A stretch of 35,847 nt of DNA from a virus: IMG/VR virus record IMGVR_UViG_3300027763_000014, positions 1 through 35,847 of that record. One strand, 5' to 3'. Positions 9,961-23,091 of this stretch are shown here, one piece after another. A model generated the notes under the pieces. The model was not told the DNA's origin, did no database searches, and was given only the letters and a program-made list of their open reading frames with translations. The position numbers and the translations under genes were made by a program. Position 1 is the stretch's first letter, and every line of letters starts with the position of its first letter.

Positions 9961-10463
9961 GTTTTAAAGAATGTTTAGAGTTAGTGTTAAAGTCAGAAGG
10001 TGGTTGGGTTTATAACCCGCTTGACCCTGGCGGCGAAACCAATTTAGGCGTTACTCAGCGTGTCTGGGAAGAATGGGTAGGACACCCTGTAGAAACTATG
10101 AAGAATTTAACCCCTGAATTGGTTACACCTTTATACGAACAAAAATACTGGAGGCCTTGCTATGGAGAAGTATTACCTAGGGGACTCAACCTTGTTGTGT
10201 TTTCAATGGCAGTTAATGCAGGGCCAGGCAGAAGCGTTAAATTGCTTCAATCAGCTATTGGATGTGTACCTGACGGAGTTATTGGCCCAAGGACAAGAGA
10301 GCTTATTTGCGCCAGTAATAGTGCAACTCTTATCGCTAAATTCTCTGAAGCTCGCAGGGAATACTACCGTTCATTAAAAACTTTTCCTATTTTTGGCAAA
10401 GGCTGGCTTAACCGTGTAGACCACGAAGAAAAAGAAGCCATTAATATGGCAAAAAGTGGTTAA
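9957..10463 (+). CDS. Endolysin, GH108 muramidase with PG-binding domain
   Basis: 168 aa. The N-terminus has the GH108 motif LVLKSEGGWVYNPLDPGGET, with Glu14 as the probable catalytic acid, followed by NLGVTQ. The C-terminal part (about 90-168) contains AVNAGPGRSVKLLQ and PDGVIGPRTRELI, the PG_binding_3 pattern, then AKFSEARREYYRSL. Length fits the family. There is no signal peptide or anchor, so release through the holin is expected. The ATG overlaps the spanin stop. The gene's end overlaps the convergent leftward gene by 23 bases. Confidence 0.92.
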   Translation: MSFKECLELVLKSEGGWVYNPLDPGGETNLGVTQRVWEEWVGHPVETMKNLTPELVTPLYEQKYWRPCYGEVLPRGLNLVVFSMAVNAGPGRSVKLLQSAIGCVPDGVIGPRTRELICASNSATLIAKFSEARREYYRSLKTFPIFGKGWLNRVDHEEKEAINMAKSG

Positions 10464-10632
10464 GCACGCATAATGTAATAGCTAACGCTGACAATACCGC
10501 CAAAATGCTCCAAATGTGGCTGTATTCGCTTTTTTCAGGTCTAGTAATAGCTGTAGACCAAGTAGCATCTTTAAACGCCTCTTGAGCCGAATTATAGCTT
10601 TTACCTACCATTCCAAATGACCGTGTGCTCAT
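10441..10632 (-). CDS. Small single-span membrane protein
   Basis: 63 aa with SD AAAGGGGAAA just upstream of the ATG. The N-terminal half is polar (SYNSAQEAFKDATWSTAITR) and a transmembrane helix lies at about residues 40-61 (WSILAVLSALAITLCVLNHF). It is the last gene of the leftward unit and overlaps the convergent muramidase end by 23 bases. Its ATG overlaps the stop of the preceding 54-aa gene. Similar phage membrane proteins exist but the role is unknown. Confidence 0.72.
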   Translation of the reverse strand: MSTRSFGMVGKSYNSAQEAFKDATWSTAITRPEKSEYSHIWSILAVLSALAITLCVLNHFLPY

Positions 10633-10793
10633 TTTTTCCCCTTTTTAGCTTTTTTTTCTTGCTCAATATATTGGCGCAAAATACTAATAATTCCAGCCTC
10701 TACCAACATTCCTAACCCTTCTTTGTCAAAATGCACTAAAGCGTCTGCGCTACCGTCTTTATTCTCTTTTACTATTTCAATTTGAATTTGCAT
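10629..10793 (-). CDS. Small protein, beta start and charged end
   Basis: 54 aa. It has a good SD (GAGGAAA) 7 bases before the ATG and an ATGA overlap with the next leftward gene. The sequence begins MQIQIEIVKENKDGSADALV, followed by HFDKEGLGMLVEAGIISIL, and ends in a Lys-rich tail. It resembles a recurring phage hypothetical family (IEI..ENEDGSA pattern). Function is unknown; position suggests an early accessory gene. Confidence 0.7.
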   Translation of the reverse strand: MQIQIEIVKENKDGSADALVHFDKEGLGMLVEAGIISILRQYIEQEKKAKKGKK

Positions 10794-10941: not shown

Positions 10942-11203
10942 CAAAAAGGTCTTTCCCATCTCTTAAACGCTTACGCAAATTGCGTAGGTAAGTTTTTAAA
11001 ACTGCGTCACTTTCAGGACTAAAAACCATTTTGTATAACTTTTTGTCTGGTTCGGTCTGCGGTTTATTTACCCATCTTTCTTCATTAATGTACCAAAGAA
11101 ACCTGCGGCAAGCCAATTCTTCTGTAGCACAACGCTGTTTATATTCACAGTATTGGCATGGGTTAGGTTCGTCTTCTAACCTTTTGTATATGTCGTTTCT
11201 CAT
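10934..11203 (-). CDS. Small Cys-cluster protein (probable metal binding)
   Basis: 89 aa with a compact cluster Cys16-x2-Cys19-x5-Cys25-x6-Cys32 (PCQYCEYKQRC then ACRRF), likely coordinating zinc or an iron-sulphur cluster. The C-terminal half is basic (VLKTYLRNLRKRLRDGK) and could contact nucleic acid. The ATG overlaps the stop of the upstream 57-aa gene (ATGA). Comparable CxxC-C-C proteins are common in phages of Burkholderiales. The role is unknown. Confidence 0.72.
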   Translation of the reverse strand: MRNDIYKRLEDEPNPCQYCEYKQRCATEELACRRFLWYINEERWVNKPQTEPDKKLYKMVFSPESDAVLKTYLRNLRKRLRDGKDLFDV

Positions 11204-11373
11204 GCTTGAGCATAAATTGCATCTTCAAATGTAGGCCATAAATCAAGCTCATGTGCCATTTCTGTAATGTCATTGTCTCCAATGTAAGCATAAGTTATTT
11301 CATTGTTATAACCACGCAATTCAACTGTAGTATTGCCAAAAACTACTGACTCTATGTAATGTCCGTCTTTCAT
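11200..11373 (-). CDS. Small hypothetical protein downstream of structured RNA region
   Basis: 57 aa. The ATG at 11373 is preceded by AAAGGGGAAATT, so it is preferred over the in-frame ATG at 11415, which lacks an SD. The sequence MKDGHYIESVVFGNTTVELR, with NNEITYAYIGDNDITEMAHE following, suggests a small alpha/beta protein. Its SD is the exact complement of the loop of the upstream hairpin at 11639-11648, in the same leftward transcript. Function unknown. Confidence 0.7.
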   Translation of the reverse strand: MKDGHYIESVVFGNTTVELRGYNNEITYAYIGDNDITEMAHELDLWPTFEDAIYAQA

Positions 11374-11443
11374 AATTTCCCCTTTAAAACTGTAATTTAT
11401 TGAAATTTCATGCACTTTTTAATAGGTGTTTACCCTTATTGTG

Positions 11444-11506: not shown

Positions 11507-11530
11507 AAGGGCTGTATTTGGCAGTTGCTA

Positions 11531-11664
11531 GCCGTTAGGTGGAAAGCCGCAAAAACCCTAACTTACTGCATCCTACAACGGCGGCTTAACGCCCTTAAAT
11601 AAGGTGAGGTGGCAGGACTCCGTGATGTATGGTTGTGCAAAGGGGAAAGCACACCTACCACCTC
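11531..11664 (-). ncRNA. Candidate structured RNA with SD-complementary loop
   Basis: This gap holds no ORF but has nested complementarity. 11531-11539 pairs with 11572-11574 plus 11577-11582 (9 bp with a 2-base bulge). 11606-11616 pairs with 11654-11664 (11 positions). Inside the latter, 11634-11638 pairs with 11649-11653 (5 bp) around a 10-base loop. Read on the minus strand the loop is UUUCCCCUUU, the exact complement of the SD at three leftward genes. Position 11613/11657 is C-A on the plus strand but G-U on the minus strand, favouring minus transcription. It begins six bases after the exonuclease stop, so it may be processed from that mRNA. It resembles no RNA class that I recognise. Confidence 0.4.
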
Positions 11665-11669
11665 TTGAA

Positions 11670-12416
11670 TTAGTTTAACCCAGTTTTTAATTTGTAAATT
11701 TTCAAAAGACTTAAAAACATTTCGTAGCCATCACGAATGGCTTGCTCAGTATGTTCGTATATAGCCACCTCATTAGTTTCGCCATTAATGTATACATTGG
11801 CGCACCGTGCTGTAGGGGCTAAGACTTCTCTGTATGCTGCAAGCTGTAGGGTATGCTCTAGGTAGGGTGTTAAATCACCAGGACATTTTTCCGTCGTCTT
11901 GAAGTCAATTACTACCCCACCGAAGTCCCCTTTTGCTTTGCAATAAAGGTCGCATTTACCGCCATAGCCTTCTTGGTTTACTAGACTCTGCTCAGGAATC
12001 CATAGCTGCGCCCCAAAATGAGCCGTTATAGCGTCATCTACCTTGCGGACATAGGTAGGTAGCTCAGGTAGGTATTCTTGGTTGTAGAAGCTCTCTATAA
12101 AGTCATGTATAAGAGTTCCCCTAGCCATAGCGTCTTGGGACTTTCTTTTAGACAATTCCAGCACTCGGCTAATGTAGTCTTTTTCTTCTTCACCTTCTTG
12201 GCGAGGATTTTCCGCAGCCGCTTTAATGGCCTCAGTCTGTAACCATGTATTTAGCCCATCTTTAGACAACTGCCCATTTATGGTGGACACAGACGGTACT
12301 AGCGTTCCTGGCATTGCTTTGGCATCACGCAAGGTTACTGACCTTTCTTTGCCGTTTTTACCAGTCATGGTGTAGCGTGGTGCGCCAGTTAAGGCGCAAT
12401 ACCAATGTTGTGACAT
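11670..12416 (-). CDS. PD-(D/E)XK (RecB/Cas4-like) exonuclease
   Basis: 248 aa with SD AAAGGGGAAA. RecB-like nuclease motifs appear in order: G100-TLIH, GGKCDLY with Asp156, VVIDFKTT with Asp171 and Lys173, and Gln191-LAAY. These are the metal-binding and QxxxY elements of the family. Together with the ERF annealase and SSB-like protein in the same leftward unit it would form a lambda Red-like recombination module, degrading duplex ends so that the annealase can pair strands. The N-terminal 60 residues are family-specific. Confidence 0.85.
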   Translation of the reverse strand: MSQHWYCALTGAPRYTMTGKNGKERSVTLRDAKAMPGTLVPSVSTINGQLSKDGLNTWLQTEAIKAAAENPRQEGEEEKDYISRVLELSKRKSQDAMARGTLIHDFIESFYNQEYLPELPTYVRKVDDAITAHFGAQLWIPEQSLVNQEGYGGKCDLYCKAKGDFGGVVIDFKTTEKCPGDLTPYLEHTLQLAAYREVLAPTARCANVYINGETNEVAIYEHTEQAIRDGYEMFLSLLKIYKLKTGLN

Positions 12417-12435
12417 ATTTTCCCCTTTGTACCGC

Positions 12436-13387: not shown

Positions 13388-13815
13388 TAGATTTCCTTTG
13401 CTTTTACTACTGGTTTAGGTGACGAAGCGGCATTACCGTCATCGTCTGCTTGTACTACTCCTACTACTGCTGCGAGGCTATAGCGCCTCATGTAGCTCAA
13501 ACACGAGCCGCATCCTTGGCTGTCCACTTTAGTAACAGGCACAGACATTTCTTGACTAATCCATTCACCAGAAGAATGGGTAAGAATGGTAGTTAAAGAC
13601 ATAGACTTGTCTAAGTCGGAATAAGTGCCAGGGAACTGAGCCACAGCCAAACCATTATTAGCCAGCAAATCACGGCAAGCATCCCACACAGACTCAAGGT
13701 CTGCATACTTACTTTTGAAAAAAGGGTTTGCAGAGTCTTTTTTAGCATGAGTTAGTTTTCCTTGTACTGTTGATAGCGCTTTGGCTAAATTTGCAATGCT
13801 TTCAGACTGTTGCAT
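13387..13815 (-). CDS. erf: ERF-family single-strand annealing protein
   Basis: 142 aa from the ATG at 13815, which has a GGAGGT SD. The longer frame to 13950 overlaps the previous gene and adds non-conserved residues. ERF features include KDSANPFFKSKYADL, VWDACRDLLANNGLAV, TILTHSSGEWI, GSCLSYMRRYSLAA and VVQADDDGN. The protein anneals complementary strands, probably working with the exonuclease and SSB-like protein nearby. It lacks the longer C-terminal tail of P22 Erf. Confidence 0.9.
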   Translation of the reverse strand: MQQSESIANLAKALSTVQGKLTHAKKDSANPFFKSKYADLESVWDACRDLLANNGLAVAQFPGTYSDLDKSMSLTTILTHSSGEWISQEMSVPVTKVDSQGCGSCLSYMRRYSLAAVVGVVQADDDGNAASSPKPVVKAKEI

Positions 13816-14005
13816 TTTGACCTCCAAAAACATTACCAAAGTCGTCAAATACGGTTTGTAATAGGACATTGCGTTTAGGTTTGCCACAAGCTGCACGAAT
13901 AACATCAATGTCATCCTGTGCCATTTCTGTGCCAAATTCCATGTTGTCAAGCGCTATTTCTAAGCGCTCTTCCATTTCCAGCATAAGTTGGTTTAATTCA
14001 CCCAT
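13802..14005 (-). CDS. Small acidic helical protein, first gene of leftward unit
   Basis: 67 aa from the ATG at 14005, preceded by AAGGGGA. It is the promoter-proximal gene opposite the Cro-like regulator and overlaps ERF by 14 bases. The N-terminal half is an acidic helix (LMLEMEERLEIALDNMEFG) and the C-terminus is NVLLQTVFDDFGNVFGG. Position recalls early regulatory or antirestriction-type proteins, but no family is recognised. Confidence 0.65.
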   Translation of the reverse strand: MGELNQLMLEMEERLEIALDNMEFGTEMAQDDIDVIRAACGKPKRNVLLQTVFDDFGNVFGGQNATV

Positions 14006-14115
14006 TTGAATCCCCTTAAATGGCATAGCGAAATTGCTATATAGACACTTTAACACAAGTGTATAAAAAATGTAAACTGTATGCAAATAAACAACATTTA
14101 AGTTAAACTGCGTGA
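14006..14115. promoter_or_regulatory. Divergent early promoter/operator region
   Basis: This gap separates the leftward recombination unit from the Cro-like gene. Two dyads share a 5-6-5 geometry: ATAGC..GCTAT (14025-14040) and CACTT..AAGTG (14046-14061), with centres 21 bp apart, two helical turns. Leftward hexamers may be TTGCAT (14081-14086) and TACACT (14058-14063) with 17-bp spacing. Rightward TTAACA (14050-14055) and TAAACT (14073-14078) also have 17-bp spacing. The 15-mer GCAAATAAACAACAT lies at 14083-14097. The dyads overlap both putative promoters, as expected of operators. Hexamer matches are moderate. Confidence 0.6.
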
Positions 14116-14935: not shown

Positions 14936-15239
14936 TAGAATTACCTTCCTTTCTCGAGGCTCTAACGACATACCAGGGGAAAGGAATTACAGCGCTACTG
15001 GGGGTAATGGTTGAAACAGCGCAATATAGGTGGCGAAGTTAGTGCCTATACCATGAACGACTGACGGGTAAGCGATTCCTCAATGGAAGAACTTTTAAGG
15101 CAACCTAGGTAGGCTAGGTTCGCTCAAACCTCTTGGAAGTGGTATTAAAGCAACTAAGTATAAATACTAATAGATACTTTAAAGACTATGGGGCAAACTA
15201 CAAGAACTCAATAACGAGTAAACATTTAAGGGGATTTAA
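14936..15239 (+). ncRNA. Structured non-coding gap; candidate RNA or origin
   Basis: This 304-base stretch has no plausible ORF on either strand. Paired segments: TTCCTTTC 14946-14953 with GAAAGGAA 14979-14986; CCAG 14973-14976 with CTGG 14998-15001; ATGG 15007-15010 and TATAGG 15025-15030 with the contiguous CCTATACCAT 15045-15054. AACCTA 15102-15107 pairs with TAGGTT 15115-15120, and AGGTT 15116-15120 could instead pair with AACCT 15127-15131, making the two mutually exclusive. Near the end is an AT-rich dyad AAGTAT/ATACTT (15156-15179). It lies just upstream of the secreted and replication-type genes. It could be a phage RNA, a long 5' leader or a replication origin; sequence does not decide. 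Confidence 0.35.
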
Positions 15240-15551
15240 ATGAAAGATTTTATAGGTAGTTGTTTATTAGGCGCATTTTTTGCAGCTATGTTTGTCTACG
15301 GCATACCTGCTAAAGCGCAAACAGTTCAATTAACTGACGCACAAGGGTTTTACCGAGGCACAGTACAAATTAACGGTAACACCGCACAGTTTGTAAACCC
15401 AATGGGTTACACCACTCAGACTGCTACAATATATCCTAACCAAGTCGTAATCACGACACCAAATGGTTACACACAAAGCGTTGTTGGTAACACAGGCTAC
15501 ACAGTACCACCTAGCCCACCAACACCAATGTCCCCAAGGGTAATGCAGTAG
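15240..15551 (+). CDS. Secreted small protein with Sec signal peptide
   Basis: 103 aa with SD AAGGGGA. Residues 1-26 form a clear signal peptide (MKDFIGSCLLGAFFAAMFVY, then GIPAKA) with cleavage after Ala26. The mature part is Thr/Gln/Asn-rich with strand repeats (TVQLTDAQGFYRGTVQINGN, VVITTPNGYTQSVVGNTGY) and a Pro-rich tail. It resembles short secreted proteins of Betaproteobacteria. Expression of a secreted protein from an early phage region suggests alteration of the host envelope, for example superinfection exclusion, but this is inference. Confidence 0.75.
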   Translation: MKDFIGSCLLGAFFAAMFVYGIPAKAQTVQLTDAQGFYRGTVQINGNTAQFVNPMGYTTQTATIYPNQVVITTPNGYTQSVVGNTGYTVPPSPPTPMSPRVMQ

Positions 15552-15932: not shown

Positions 15933-16111
15933 GGTATTTATGTTATTTGCGGCATAAAAAAGGGTTGGCTTGGTTTAGAAACTACATTAGTGACAAAAAC
16001 TTTAGCCAAGCATTATTAAACGATTTTTACACGCAGTACAAATTAGGTAACAAAGGGGAATGGGGATGTTGGAAAAAATTATTGTCGGAGCAACAGGGCT
16101 TGGGTATTTAA
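15899..16111 (+). CDS. Small basic/aromatic hypothetical protein
   Basis: 70 aa from the ATG at 15899, overlapping the replication-type gene. RHECGVRYLCYLRHKKGLAW, then FRNYI, recalls short phage proteins of the DUF7696 kind (RHE..VRY.L pattern). The SD is weak, so the start is uncertain; coupling to the upstream gene is likely. The 3' end overlaps the next small membrane-protein gene by 46 bases. Confidence 0.55.
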   Translation: MYEQARHECGVRYLCYLRHKKGLAWFRNYISDKNFSQALLNDFYTQYKLGNKGEWGCWKKLLSEQQGLGI

Positions 16112-16212
16112 TTGTCTGTCTTGCACAATTAAAAAAAGGTGCTACATCTAACGCAATGATTTGGGGTGGCTATGCTTTTGCTCAAATTGGATTGTGGATG
16201 GCCCTCAAATGA
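16066..16212 (+). CDS. Two-span small membrane protein
   Basis: 48 aa, starting at ATG 16066 after AAAGGGGAATGGGG. It has two hydrophobic segments, EKIIVGATGLGYLIVCLAQL and AMIWGGYAFAQIGLWMAL, joined by a KKGATSN turn. The AMIWGGYAFA..GL pattern is familiar from small phage membrane proteins. The TGA overlaps the next ATG. Function unknown. Confidence 0.72.
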   Translation: MLEKIIVGATGLGYLIVCLAQLKKGATSNAMIWGGYAFAQIGLWMALK

Positions 16213-18848: not shown

Positions 18849-19336
18849 GGCATATCAGGCCAATAACGATTGCTTTTGATTACATTTATCATAGGGTCTA
18901 ATAACTGAAGATTAGCCCAACAATGCAAACCACATACTTTTTTGCTTTTTAATGGAACAATGTGGTCTACCTCAAAACCCCATTCTTTTGCTTTTTGATA
19001 AACAATTTTAATTTGGTCTTTTTCAAACCATAATGGAGTTGCTTCTAATTTTGAAGCTCTGTATTTTGCAAGAATGGCATTTTTTCTTTGCTGATATTGG
19101 TCTTTCTTTTTTAAAACTGAAACTTTTTTTGCTTGTTTTGCTTTTTCTGGGTTTGCTATTCTATATTTAGCTACAGTAGCTTTTACAGCATCTAAATTTT
19201 TGGCGTAATATTGCTTATCTTGCTGTTTTTTGCAAGATTTACATTCATCAGAATAACCATCTTTTTTACTTTTGTTTTTACAAAAAGTATCTAAGATTTT
19301 GTTTTCTTTACATTTGTAACAAAATTTAGTCATCAT
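18845..19336 (-). CDS. HNH endonuclease with N-terminal Cys4 zinc motif
   Basis: 163 aa. The N-terminus has FCYKCKENK and ECKSCKKQQ (Cys6, Cys9, Cys32, Cys35), a recruitment-type zinc ribbon. A long Lys-rich helix follows (about 40-95). The C-terminal HNH module is WGFEVDHIVPL (Asp124, His125), then GLHCWANLQLLDPMINVIKS with His138 and Asn142. This resembles phage free-standing homing-type endonucleases. It is inserted between two genes with ATGA overlaps and is richer in A/T than they are. The target is unknown. Confidence 0.82.
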   Translation of the reverse strand: MMTKFCYKCKENKILDTFCKNKSKKDGYSDECKSCKKQQDKQYYAKNLDAVKATVAKYRIANPEKAKQAKKVSVLKKKDQYQQRKNAILAKYRASKLEATPLWFEKDQIKIVYQKAKEWGFEVDHIVPLKSKKVCGLHCWANLQLLDPMINVIKSNRYWPDMP

Positions 19337-20292
19337 ACTTGGTGTATTTTACCTCTCCATTCAACCTCATCCTCGCCCCAAACTCTTACCATTTCAGGCT
19401 GAAGCAATTTACTGCGCTCAAATGAAAGCATTACAAACCCTGAATTCCAATCTTTAGGAGTGTCCTCTGTATAAGAAAATTGTTGGCCGTTAGGGTCAGC
19501 AAGTGTGCCTGTTTGAACTCCCCAGCGTGTGCCGTTATAGTCATTAAAAGGTATGGCTGAAAGGACATGGGTGTGTCCTGTAATCATATTGACCCCTGAA
19601 TTGACAGCATTGTTTCTGCCGCCAGTCCAGCCACCTTTCCAACGGTGCTTAATGCAAGTGTCTTCATTTAGCCAAACACTCCAACATGGAAGCCACATAG
19701 GGAAATAGTCTTTAAGACTCGTGCCTGGTATACCCTCAAAGGAAGGTAGGTTAGCCACAATGTTAGCTTCTAAGCGTTGGTCGTGGTTTCCCATAGGAAA
19801 AAACAATTTAGCGCCCTTGGCTACGGCTTCAATTTCTCCTAAATAATGCTGACACGCTTCTAATTCTTCTTTCATTGTTGGCAGCTTATTCCAGTCGGTG
19901 CGTGGAAAGCGACTAATAGAAGCACCGTCAAGCGCATCACCATTACAGACTACTGCTGTAGGCTTAAACTCTTTAATCATTTCTATAAGGGCTTTAAACG
20001 CTGTAGTAGTTTCGTCAGGCCAAAAGTGTGCGTCAGAAAAGACAATGACTCGCCCTTTTTCTATTTCCATGCCTCTGCGTACATTGCCAGGGGTTTGCTG
20101 TATTTTCTTTACATAGGCAGGGTTGTGGCTATTGAAGGTATCTAATTTGATACCATGCCTGCTTTCTAATGCCCTGCGCCTAGACATTACATTTCTAATA
20201 GCTATTTGGTTTACTCTGGCAAATTCGCTAGGACTACCAATTTTATTCCAAGACTCAATCCACTCTTCATCCGTTAAATAATAACCAGCCAT
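19333..20292 (-). CDS. Calcineurin-like metallophosphoesterase with N-terminal HTH-like segment
   Basis: 319 aa with an AAGGGGA SD. Residues 1-50 (LTDEEWIESWNKIGSPSEFA) look like a DNA-binding helix-turn-helix. The phosphoesterase motifs are complete and ordered: SDAH (Asp87, His89), NGD (Asp119), GNHD (168-171), KHRW (His216) and TGHTHV (His240, His242). It should hydrolyse phosphodiester or phosphomonoester bonds with two metals. Similar proteins in phages are of unknown substrate; an HTH linked to a phosphatase suggests DNA or RNA ends. Confidence 0.85.
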   Translation of the reverse strand: MAGYYLTDEEWIESWNKIGSPSEFARVNQIAIRNVMSRRRALESRHGIKLDTFNSHNPAYVKKIQQTPGNVRRGMEIEKGRVIVFSDAHFWPDETTTAFKALIEMIKEFKPTAVVCNGDALDGASISRFPRTDWNKLPTMKEELEACQHYLGEIEAVAKGAKLFFPMGNHDQRLEANIVANLPSFEGIPGTSLKDYFPMWLPCWSVWLNEDTCIKHRWKGGWTGGRNNAVNSGVNMITGHTHVLSAIPFNDYNGTRWGVQTGTLADPNGQQFSYTEDTPKDWNSGFVMLSFERSKLLQPEMVRVWGEDEVEWRGKIHQV

Positions 20293-20337
20293 TCGATTCC
20301 CCTTATACTATAAGTTTACAAACACTAACATAGAATT

Positions 20338-22394: not shown

Positions 22395-22559
22395 TTAGAC
22401 CTCCTCCACGCTATCAATATCCCACTCTAATTCTGGCAGGTCATCCCATTCAAACTCTTGGTCTGACATAGTGACCAGTCCAATAGCATCAGACTGGCTG
22501 TCTGCCTCGATATTGATATATTCATAGCTTGTACGCTTTGCAATTACACGATATAACAT
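22395..22559 (-). CDS. 54-aa acidic small protein
   Basis: 54 aa from ATG 22559 with SD AAGGGGAAA; the longer frame from 22586 has no SD. The N-terminus MLYRVIAKRTSYEYINIEAD forms strands and the C-terminus is very acidic (EFEWDDLPELEWDIDSVEE). The latter resembles DNA-mimic-like acidity, but this is only a guess. Unknown function. Confidence 0.66.
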   Translation of the reverse strand: MLYRVIAKRTSYEYINIEADSQSDAIGLVTMSDQEFEWDDLPELEWDIDSVEEV

Positions 22560-22604
22560 AGTATTTCCCCTTGATGAAATGGGCAAAATAGCCCTTAAAA
22601 CGCT

Positions 22605-22694
22605 TTAAATTGCGTTGATTGAAGTTAAGTACCAGAAGTAATACAAAATTGCCGCCAAAGAAACTGAAATAAGCACCGCATGATAATTTTTCAT
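22605..22694 (-). CDS. 29-aa membrane micro-protein
   Basis: 29 aa with SD AAGGGGAA. KNYHAVLISVSLAAILYYFW is one transmembrane helix with a short polar tail. It lies within the leftward micro-protein operon. The SD and hydrophobicity are the only support. Confidence 0.55.
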   Translation of the reverse strand: MKNYHAVLISVSLAAILYYFWYLTSINAI

Positions 22695-22704
22695 AGTATT
22701 CCCC

Positions 22705-23043
22705 TTATCTGCAAACCCATAATTCTGAGAGTGCATCATCTAAGTCCATATAGTCATTGAATGAAGCTCTAGCATAGTCACCCCACCAATAACCTTCTAC
22801 AACATTACGCTGAGTATCAACCCAAATATTAGGACCTCCAAAAGCTACTAATATCCTAGCTCCTAAATACTCACCTTTACCGCTTACAATGTATTGAATG
22901 TCTAATACATCCTGTAAGTAGTCCATTGCTGTTTGAGTCTCTCCAAATTCATTGTCTTGCATATAACCTTCAAAGCCTTTGGATAAAGTCTCTGCAATGC
23001 TATCAACATGACTCTGTAAGTCTGATTTGTCTTTCTTACTCAT
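22705..23043 (-). CDS. Hypothetical protein, first gene of leftward micro-protein operon
   Basis: 112 aa with SD AAAGGGGAA. Segments include DNEFGETQTAMDYLQDVLDI, EYLGARILVAFGGPNIWVDT and VEGYWWGDYARASFN. This is a recognisable phage hypothetical family (a GGPNIW..T motif with W-W-G) without a known role. It is promoter-proximal, facing the terminase promoter. Confidence 0.75.
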   Translation of the reverse strand: MSKKDKSDLQSHVDSIAETLSKGFEGYMQDNEFGETQTAMDYLQDVLDIQYIVSGKGEYLGARILVAFGGPNIWVDTQRNVVEGYWWGDYARASFNDYMDLDDALSELWVCR

Positions 23044-23091
23044 TGTGATTCCCCTTTGATAAACACTTCATTAAACATACTGCATGAATGA

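Follow-up and report, generated by a model that had tools for sequence, protein, structure and literature searches.

A conserved loop complementary to AAGGGGA Shine-Dalgarno sequences, carried on a covarying RNA scaffold behind a phage exonuclease gene

Directly behind a PD-(D/E)XK exonuclease gene, the minus strand of an uncultured phage encodes a structured RNA element with a conserved anti-Shine-Dalgarno (anti-SD) loop, as supported by the analyses below. These were carried out on the window, i.e. the whole 35,847-nucleotide stretch of IMG/VR virus record IMGVR_UViG_3300027763_000014, and on its relatives. Judged from this comparison of sequences, the element has a defined structure, strand and conserved loop, and the loop matches a gene-specific set of SDs with which it co-occurs. 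We consider it probable that the element is a 3'-UTR antisense regulator, the anti-SD loop of which would block, both in cis and in trans, an SD regulon of the phage. This is the best reading because the scaffold covaries, the loop is kept through changes of scaffold, the matching SDs are gene-specific, loop and motif are concordant, and the pairing energies agree. The parts of the element and the adjoining gene are as follows:

11603..11665, minus strand: the RNA element as a whole, a three-way junction located in the exonuclease 3' UTR (fold z-score, covariance-model match, covariation)
11664-11654 with 11616-11606, minus strand: P1, the 11-bp outer stem
11653-11649 with 11638-11634, minus strand: P2, a 5-bp stem
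around 11628-11617, minus strand: P3, the third helix
11639..11648, minus strand: P2 loop of 10 nt, UUUCCCCUUU, with the heptamer UCCCCUU at 11646-11640
11670..12416, minus strand: PD-(D/E)XK exonuclease gene (PHROG 298, PF12705), directly upstream of the element and also one of its putative targets

A preliminary description of this DNA had claimed a minus-strand hairpin with a 10-nt loop on a 5-bp stem inside an 11-position stem. This hairpin is present, the minus strand folding with a minimum free energy of -25.2 kcal/mol and a z-score of -3.5, with no shuffled sequence folding equally well; the z-score of the plus-strand fold was -1.3. Two features had escaped that description, namely P3, which is weak in the window copy and longer in relatives, and the location in the 3' UTR, the element lying a few bases past the exonuclease stop codon. 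The strand preference deduced there from a wobble pair holds up: this pair, in upper P1, is U-G when read on the minus strand but would be A-C on the opposite one, and the column is U-G or C-G in relatives, which favours a minus-strand RNA. Scanning the element against Rfam gave no match at the gathering score, an E-value scan returned only weak, unrelated families, and a search of a phage collection found no DNA relatives of the window. No promoter or terminator delimiting a discrete RNA was found at the element.

Two other identities were considered and rejected. An intrinsic terminator would have a GC-rich, short-looped hairpin and a U tract behind it, but the site has a three-way junction followed by ACCUUAUUU and is not among the terminator-like sites of the window. 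A CsrA/RsmA sponge would present conserved GGA in hairpin loops, but the CACGGA of P3 gives way to UCCGUG in scaffold type C and to CACACGAG in type B, and L358/L360 lack it.

Relatives of the exonuclease occur in many viral contigs, and the phages carrying the element are an uncultured, mainly freshwater family. Eight element copies were used to build a covariance model, which matched the window copy, itself identical to one of the model-building rows, with an E-value of 4.7e-15; the model gave at most one match per record, every time at the exonuclease-adjoining site, with types B and C scoring weakly. In the stem alignment, which was fitted to the covariance model and hence favours the model's own structure, 99.6% of the cells are paired, compared with 39-63% in slid controls, and double changes occur in 16 of the 19 pairs, with 216 double-change cells observed against 58.6 ± 5.8 in shuffles. 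The same covariation picture was obtained from a MAFFT alignment of eight type A copies. Behind the exonuclease, sequences as unlike as GAGGUGG, GAGGCUGG and GGGGGCG each have a matching partner and form the same outer stem. The heptamer UCCCCUU occupies the P2 loop in all 88 complete distinct core copies (88/88), with CCCCCCUUU in its place in one later variant (L346). Both the stem covariation and the conservation of the CCCC loop, for which the preliminary description had proposed to search, are found in relatives. A quick tree of the exonucleases shows at least 24 changes among scaffold types A, B and C, through which the loop is retained. The element is also retained where an ORF has been inserted between it and the exonuclease (L058, L069, L336/G033). 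Pattern matches away from the exonuclease are chance matches without a junction, except for two real copies beside an exonuclease gene truncated at the end of its contig. One 39.8-kb contig, IMGVR_UViG_3300021354_000015, has two exonuclease copies (L497/L500) with a type B element behind each, the second copy seeming to have a TTG start.

The SDs that the loop could pair with share the motif AAGGGGA and are distributed in the window as follows:

12421..12427, minus strand: AAGGGGA SD of the exonuclease gene (AAGGGG in 80/80 of the first loci; 121/121 loop-positive distinct exonucleases)
11378..11384, minus strand: AAGGGGA SD of gene 11200-11373, the first past the element (8/8 by gene cluster, 6/6 core orthologs)
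10637..10643, minus strand: AAGGGGA SD of gene 10441-10632 (9/14 core orthologs)
14011..14017, minus strand: AAGGGGA SD of gene 13802-14005, which heads a leftward run (21/25 core orthologs)
15228..15234, plus strand: AAGGGGA SD of rightward gene 15240-15551 (19/22 core orthologs; 0/2 outgroup orthologs found)
16053..16059, plus strand: AAGGGGA SD of rightward gene 16066-16212 (19/19 by gene cluster; 16/24 by tblastn start choice)
20298..20304, minus strand: AAGGGGA SD of gene 19333-20292, a metallophosphoesterase (PF00149) (16/18 core orthologs; 0/4 outgroup orthologs)
22566..22572, minus strand: AAGGGGA SD of gene 22395-22559
22700..22706, minus strand: AAGGGGA SD of a 29-aa ORF starting at 22694
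23050..23056, minus strand: AAGGGGA SD of gene 22705-23043

The preliminary description had named AAAGGGGAAA as the SD of the genes starting at 10632, 11373 and 12416, and its three minus-strand occurrences are all at those SDs; the AAGGGGA motifs that it placed before 14005, 20292, 22559, 22694, 23043, 15240 and 16066, and the AGGAG of late genes 63, 3817, 30677 and 31300, were likewise all seen. The motif lies 4-7 nt ahead of ATG, with a mode of 5. At the exonuclease, the full AAGGGGA occurs in 79/80 of the first loci, L081 having one extra G, and in motif-aligned upstream columns it is 100% conserved, the next two A residues 99% and 85%, and the positions before it 29-66%. In the start regions of 26 core genomes, no 7-mer is more frequent than AAGGGGA (100 in 1739), and a 7-mer of the element has a well-represented complement in these regions only if it lies in the loop or adjoins it. 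Elsewhere AAGGGGA was found in 8/1198 start regions of unrelated viral contigs and 1/454 of those in seven related outgroup genomes. The objection that it is simply the general SD of the host was not borne out in the two betaproteobacterial genomes checked, neither of them a proven host, in which AAGGAGA and AAGGGGA before ATG number 96 vs 12 (a MAG) and 91 vs 37 (Nitrosospira). A scan of one genome for the host yielded distant exonuclease relatives only.

An early-to-late translation switch had been suggested from the distribution of the motif. The late side of this suggestion stands, as none of the late genes checked has AGGGG (63, 3817, 32866 and 33252; 0/74 altogether in core orthologs), and late genes mostly have GGAG-type SDs. 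The early side does not: AGGGG, which also underlies the core-ortholog counts given above for 11373, 14005, 15240, 16066 and 20292, occurs in 26/26 core orthologs of the exonuclease but, among other early leftward genes, in 0/24 of Erf (13815), 0/26 of 12633 and 2/26 of 13387. AAGGGGA is thus not the general early SD. It marks a fixed set of genes in both directions, so that there is a gene-specific regulon and not a proven early-to-late switch. In the window, the marked genes 14005, 15240, 20292 and 23043 stand first in their run, and blocking them might affect the genes behind. The outgroup orthologs found of 15240, 20292 and 14005 are without AAGGGG, and the SD of late gene 32866 is unchanged there, AAGGAGAAUGUA.

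These distributions bear on a narrower reading, which we think unlikely, namely that the loop acts in cis only and pairs with the SD of the exonuclease itself, and possibly with that of 11373, in operon autoregulation, the other SDs being incidental or inherited. The element does always adjoin the exonuclease, bar the inserted ORF in a few phages, and no SD is more constant than that of the exonuclease. However, 15240, 16066 and 20292, which lie on the other strand or in separate runs, keep the heptamer in most core genomes, and it is absent from outgroup orthologs of such genes.

The loop changes only once on the quick exonuclease tree, i.e. in one transition, so that the sample of 192 distinct exonucleases is not an independent one; within it, 121 have the loop together with the SD motif, and 71 have neither, with 0 discordant cases. 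L500, the one apparent exception, does have AAGGGGA, ahead of its TTG start. Relatives lacking the loop or the AAGGGGA SDs would, according to the preliminary description, have refuted it, but relatives retain both, and a matching SD is found at every one of these 121 exonuclease loci. A sister clade (80 loci, with at least 81% identity to L380 and about half identity to L204) shares the scaffold: many members have a P1 and P3 of their own, and others just a P3-like hairpin. The P2 loop of this clade reads ACAAAA or ACACAA, and AAGGGGA precedes the exonuclease in 0/80 loci. That the scaffold is kept there without the anti-SD loop implies that the junction or P3 also serves some other function. 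Covariation between the bases flanking the heptamer and the SD flanks was not seen.

A role of the junction in 3'-end stability or processing, with the loop/SD match due to coincidence or shared ancestry, is in our judgement still less probable than action in cis alone. It would accommodate the scaffold and P3 of the sister clade, the position directly past the stop codon and the single transition behind the loop/SD association, but not readily the facts that the loop complements the single most enriched start-region 7-mer, that it is kept across at least 24 scaffold-type changes, and that the SDs of several genes differ across the same clade split. That AAGGGGA is instead a DNA or RNA site of a phage protein regulator and the loop an opposite-strand copy of it appears very improbable: the plus strand of the loop does read AAAGGGGAAA, the motif of the SDs, but in the genes the motif is on the sense strand and spaced as an SD, the loop RNA offers no GGGG to an RNA-binding protein, and the G-U pairs of the stem favour RNA.

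In outgroup phages around MW202674, several early genes have AGGUGA SDs; a structured UCACCU loop was sought there and none was found. Those designated L122 and L126-L131 have another structured element (GCGCCGAACGGGGUUGUCCCC...) behind the same exonuclease gene, and in three loci an 8-nt match of their element (UUGUUCCC) to the exonuclease SD is suggestive only.

In simple duplex calculations without loop penalties, the pairing energy of the loop is -11.5 to -14.0 kcal/mol for AAGGGGA start regions and -5.5 kcal/mol for AAGGAG late SDs; for a 16S tail, general for proteobacteria and not that of a known host, the values are -7.3 to -8.3 kcal/mol for GGGG SDs and -8.2 kcal/mol for late SDs. The A-to-G change in the SD strengthens the loop pairing by 6-8.5 kcal/mol and hardly alters the calculated 16S pairing. 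Thus, the RNA can tell the two classes apart by one SD base that makes hardly any difference to the ribosome.

As a 3'-UTR antisense regulator, the element would work as follows. The covarying three-way junction in the 3' UTR of the exonuclease mRNA displays a single-stranded UCCCCUU in its P2 loop, which would pair with AAGGGGA SDs and block 30S binding, in cis at the exonuclease and perhaps also at downstream 11373, and in trans at the remaining AAGGGGA-marked mRNAs. As the leftward transcript accumulates, the regulon would be shut down, and genes with AAGGAG-type SDs (late genes and Erf) would escape, one A-C mismatch breaking the loop pairing while ribosome pairing stays nearly equal. The pairing itself, the repression, the ends of the RNA, its abundance or processing and the timing in infection are inferred. 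Somewhat less firmly, we regard it as likely that a single SD base sets two translation classes, GGGG being silenced by the loop in cis and in trans and GGAG being immune. If so, this would be an SD code read by RNA, in which one base serves as an on/off tag at almost no cost in ribosome affinity, and the GGAG class would comprise late and some early genes. There would then be a natural example, documented by evolution, of translation being programmed by the phage itself through a dedicated SD variant and the antisense loop that fits it, which bears on the ways in which small phages regulate sets of genes with no additional proteins; the differing loop of the sister clade on a shared scaffold provides a natural comparison.

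With its conserved SD-complementary loop on a covarying scaffold, the element may be placed functionally among anti-SD-loop regulatory RNAs, the calculated energies being favourable for the predicted repression by pairing. In Gram-positives, RsaE and LhrC pair C-rich single-stranded loops with G-rich SDs in a similar manner, but, unlike the phage element, they are host sRNAs, and we know of no phage regulon or dedicated SD variant for sRNAs of this type. The alpha-r14/NfeR1 sRNAs of alpha-rhizobia, together with AbcR1/2, have an ultraconserved anti-SD motif unpaired in hairpins whose stems are highly divergent in sequence, and this motif pairs with initiation regions and blocks translation (PMC10746234). 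The phage element resembles them in its conserved, unpaired anti-SD motif on sequence-variable stems. However, they are host sRNAs with three hairpins and the motif CCUCCUCCC, directed at ordinary SDs of host mRNAs (PMC10746234), whereas the phage element has one UCCCCUU loop, on a three-way junction belonging to a phage 3' UTR, and is matched to a dedicated SD variant of the phage's genes; having one such loop and not three CCUCCUCCC hairpins, it was not assigned to that family. The c4 RNA of phages P1 and P7 has complementary sequences, probably in loops, and acts around the ribosome-binding site of a phage gene (PMC12197685), and is thus likewise a phage RNA with loop complementarity near such a site. 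It differs in acting on a single mRNA (ant), in immunity (PMC12197685), whereas many genes share one heptamer here, and membership in the c4 family was rejected, as the element gave no Rfam match to it at the gathering score. No prior report of the element was found in the open-licence papers searched.

The surroundings of the element hold further RNA features. Past it, at about 11512-11599 on the minus strand, lies a second conserved structured module with a GGGC/GCCC closing stem, in which AAGCCGC/GCGGCUU is interleaved with GUUAGG/CCUAAC in a pseudoknot-like manner; 97 distinct variants occur in the loci, including the sister clade, with 0 Rfam matches. Between the element and this module, L029-L033, L045, L076 and others carry short hairpin modules of the form NNNC-GAAAGCGUAAAGAAGCRAGUA-GNNN, which come and go between relatives, so that the intergenic region there is modular. 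In L274 and L312, an apparent tRNA gene (anticodon region CUGUUAAUC) stands immediately behind the element. On the plus strand, an Rfam Betaproteobacteria-1 RNA (RF02932, 95.8 bits) lies at 14946-15069, upstream of the AAGGGGA-marked gene 15240.
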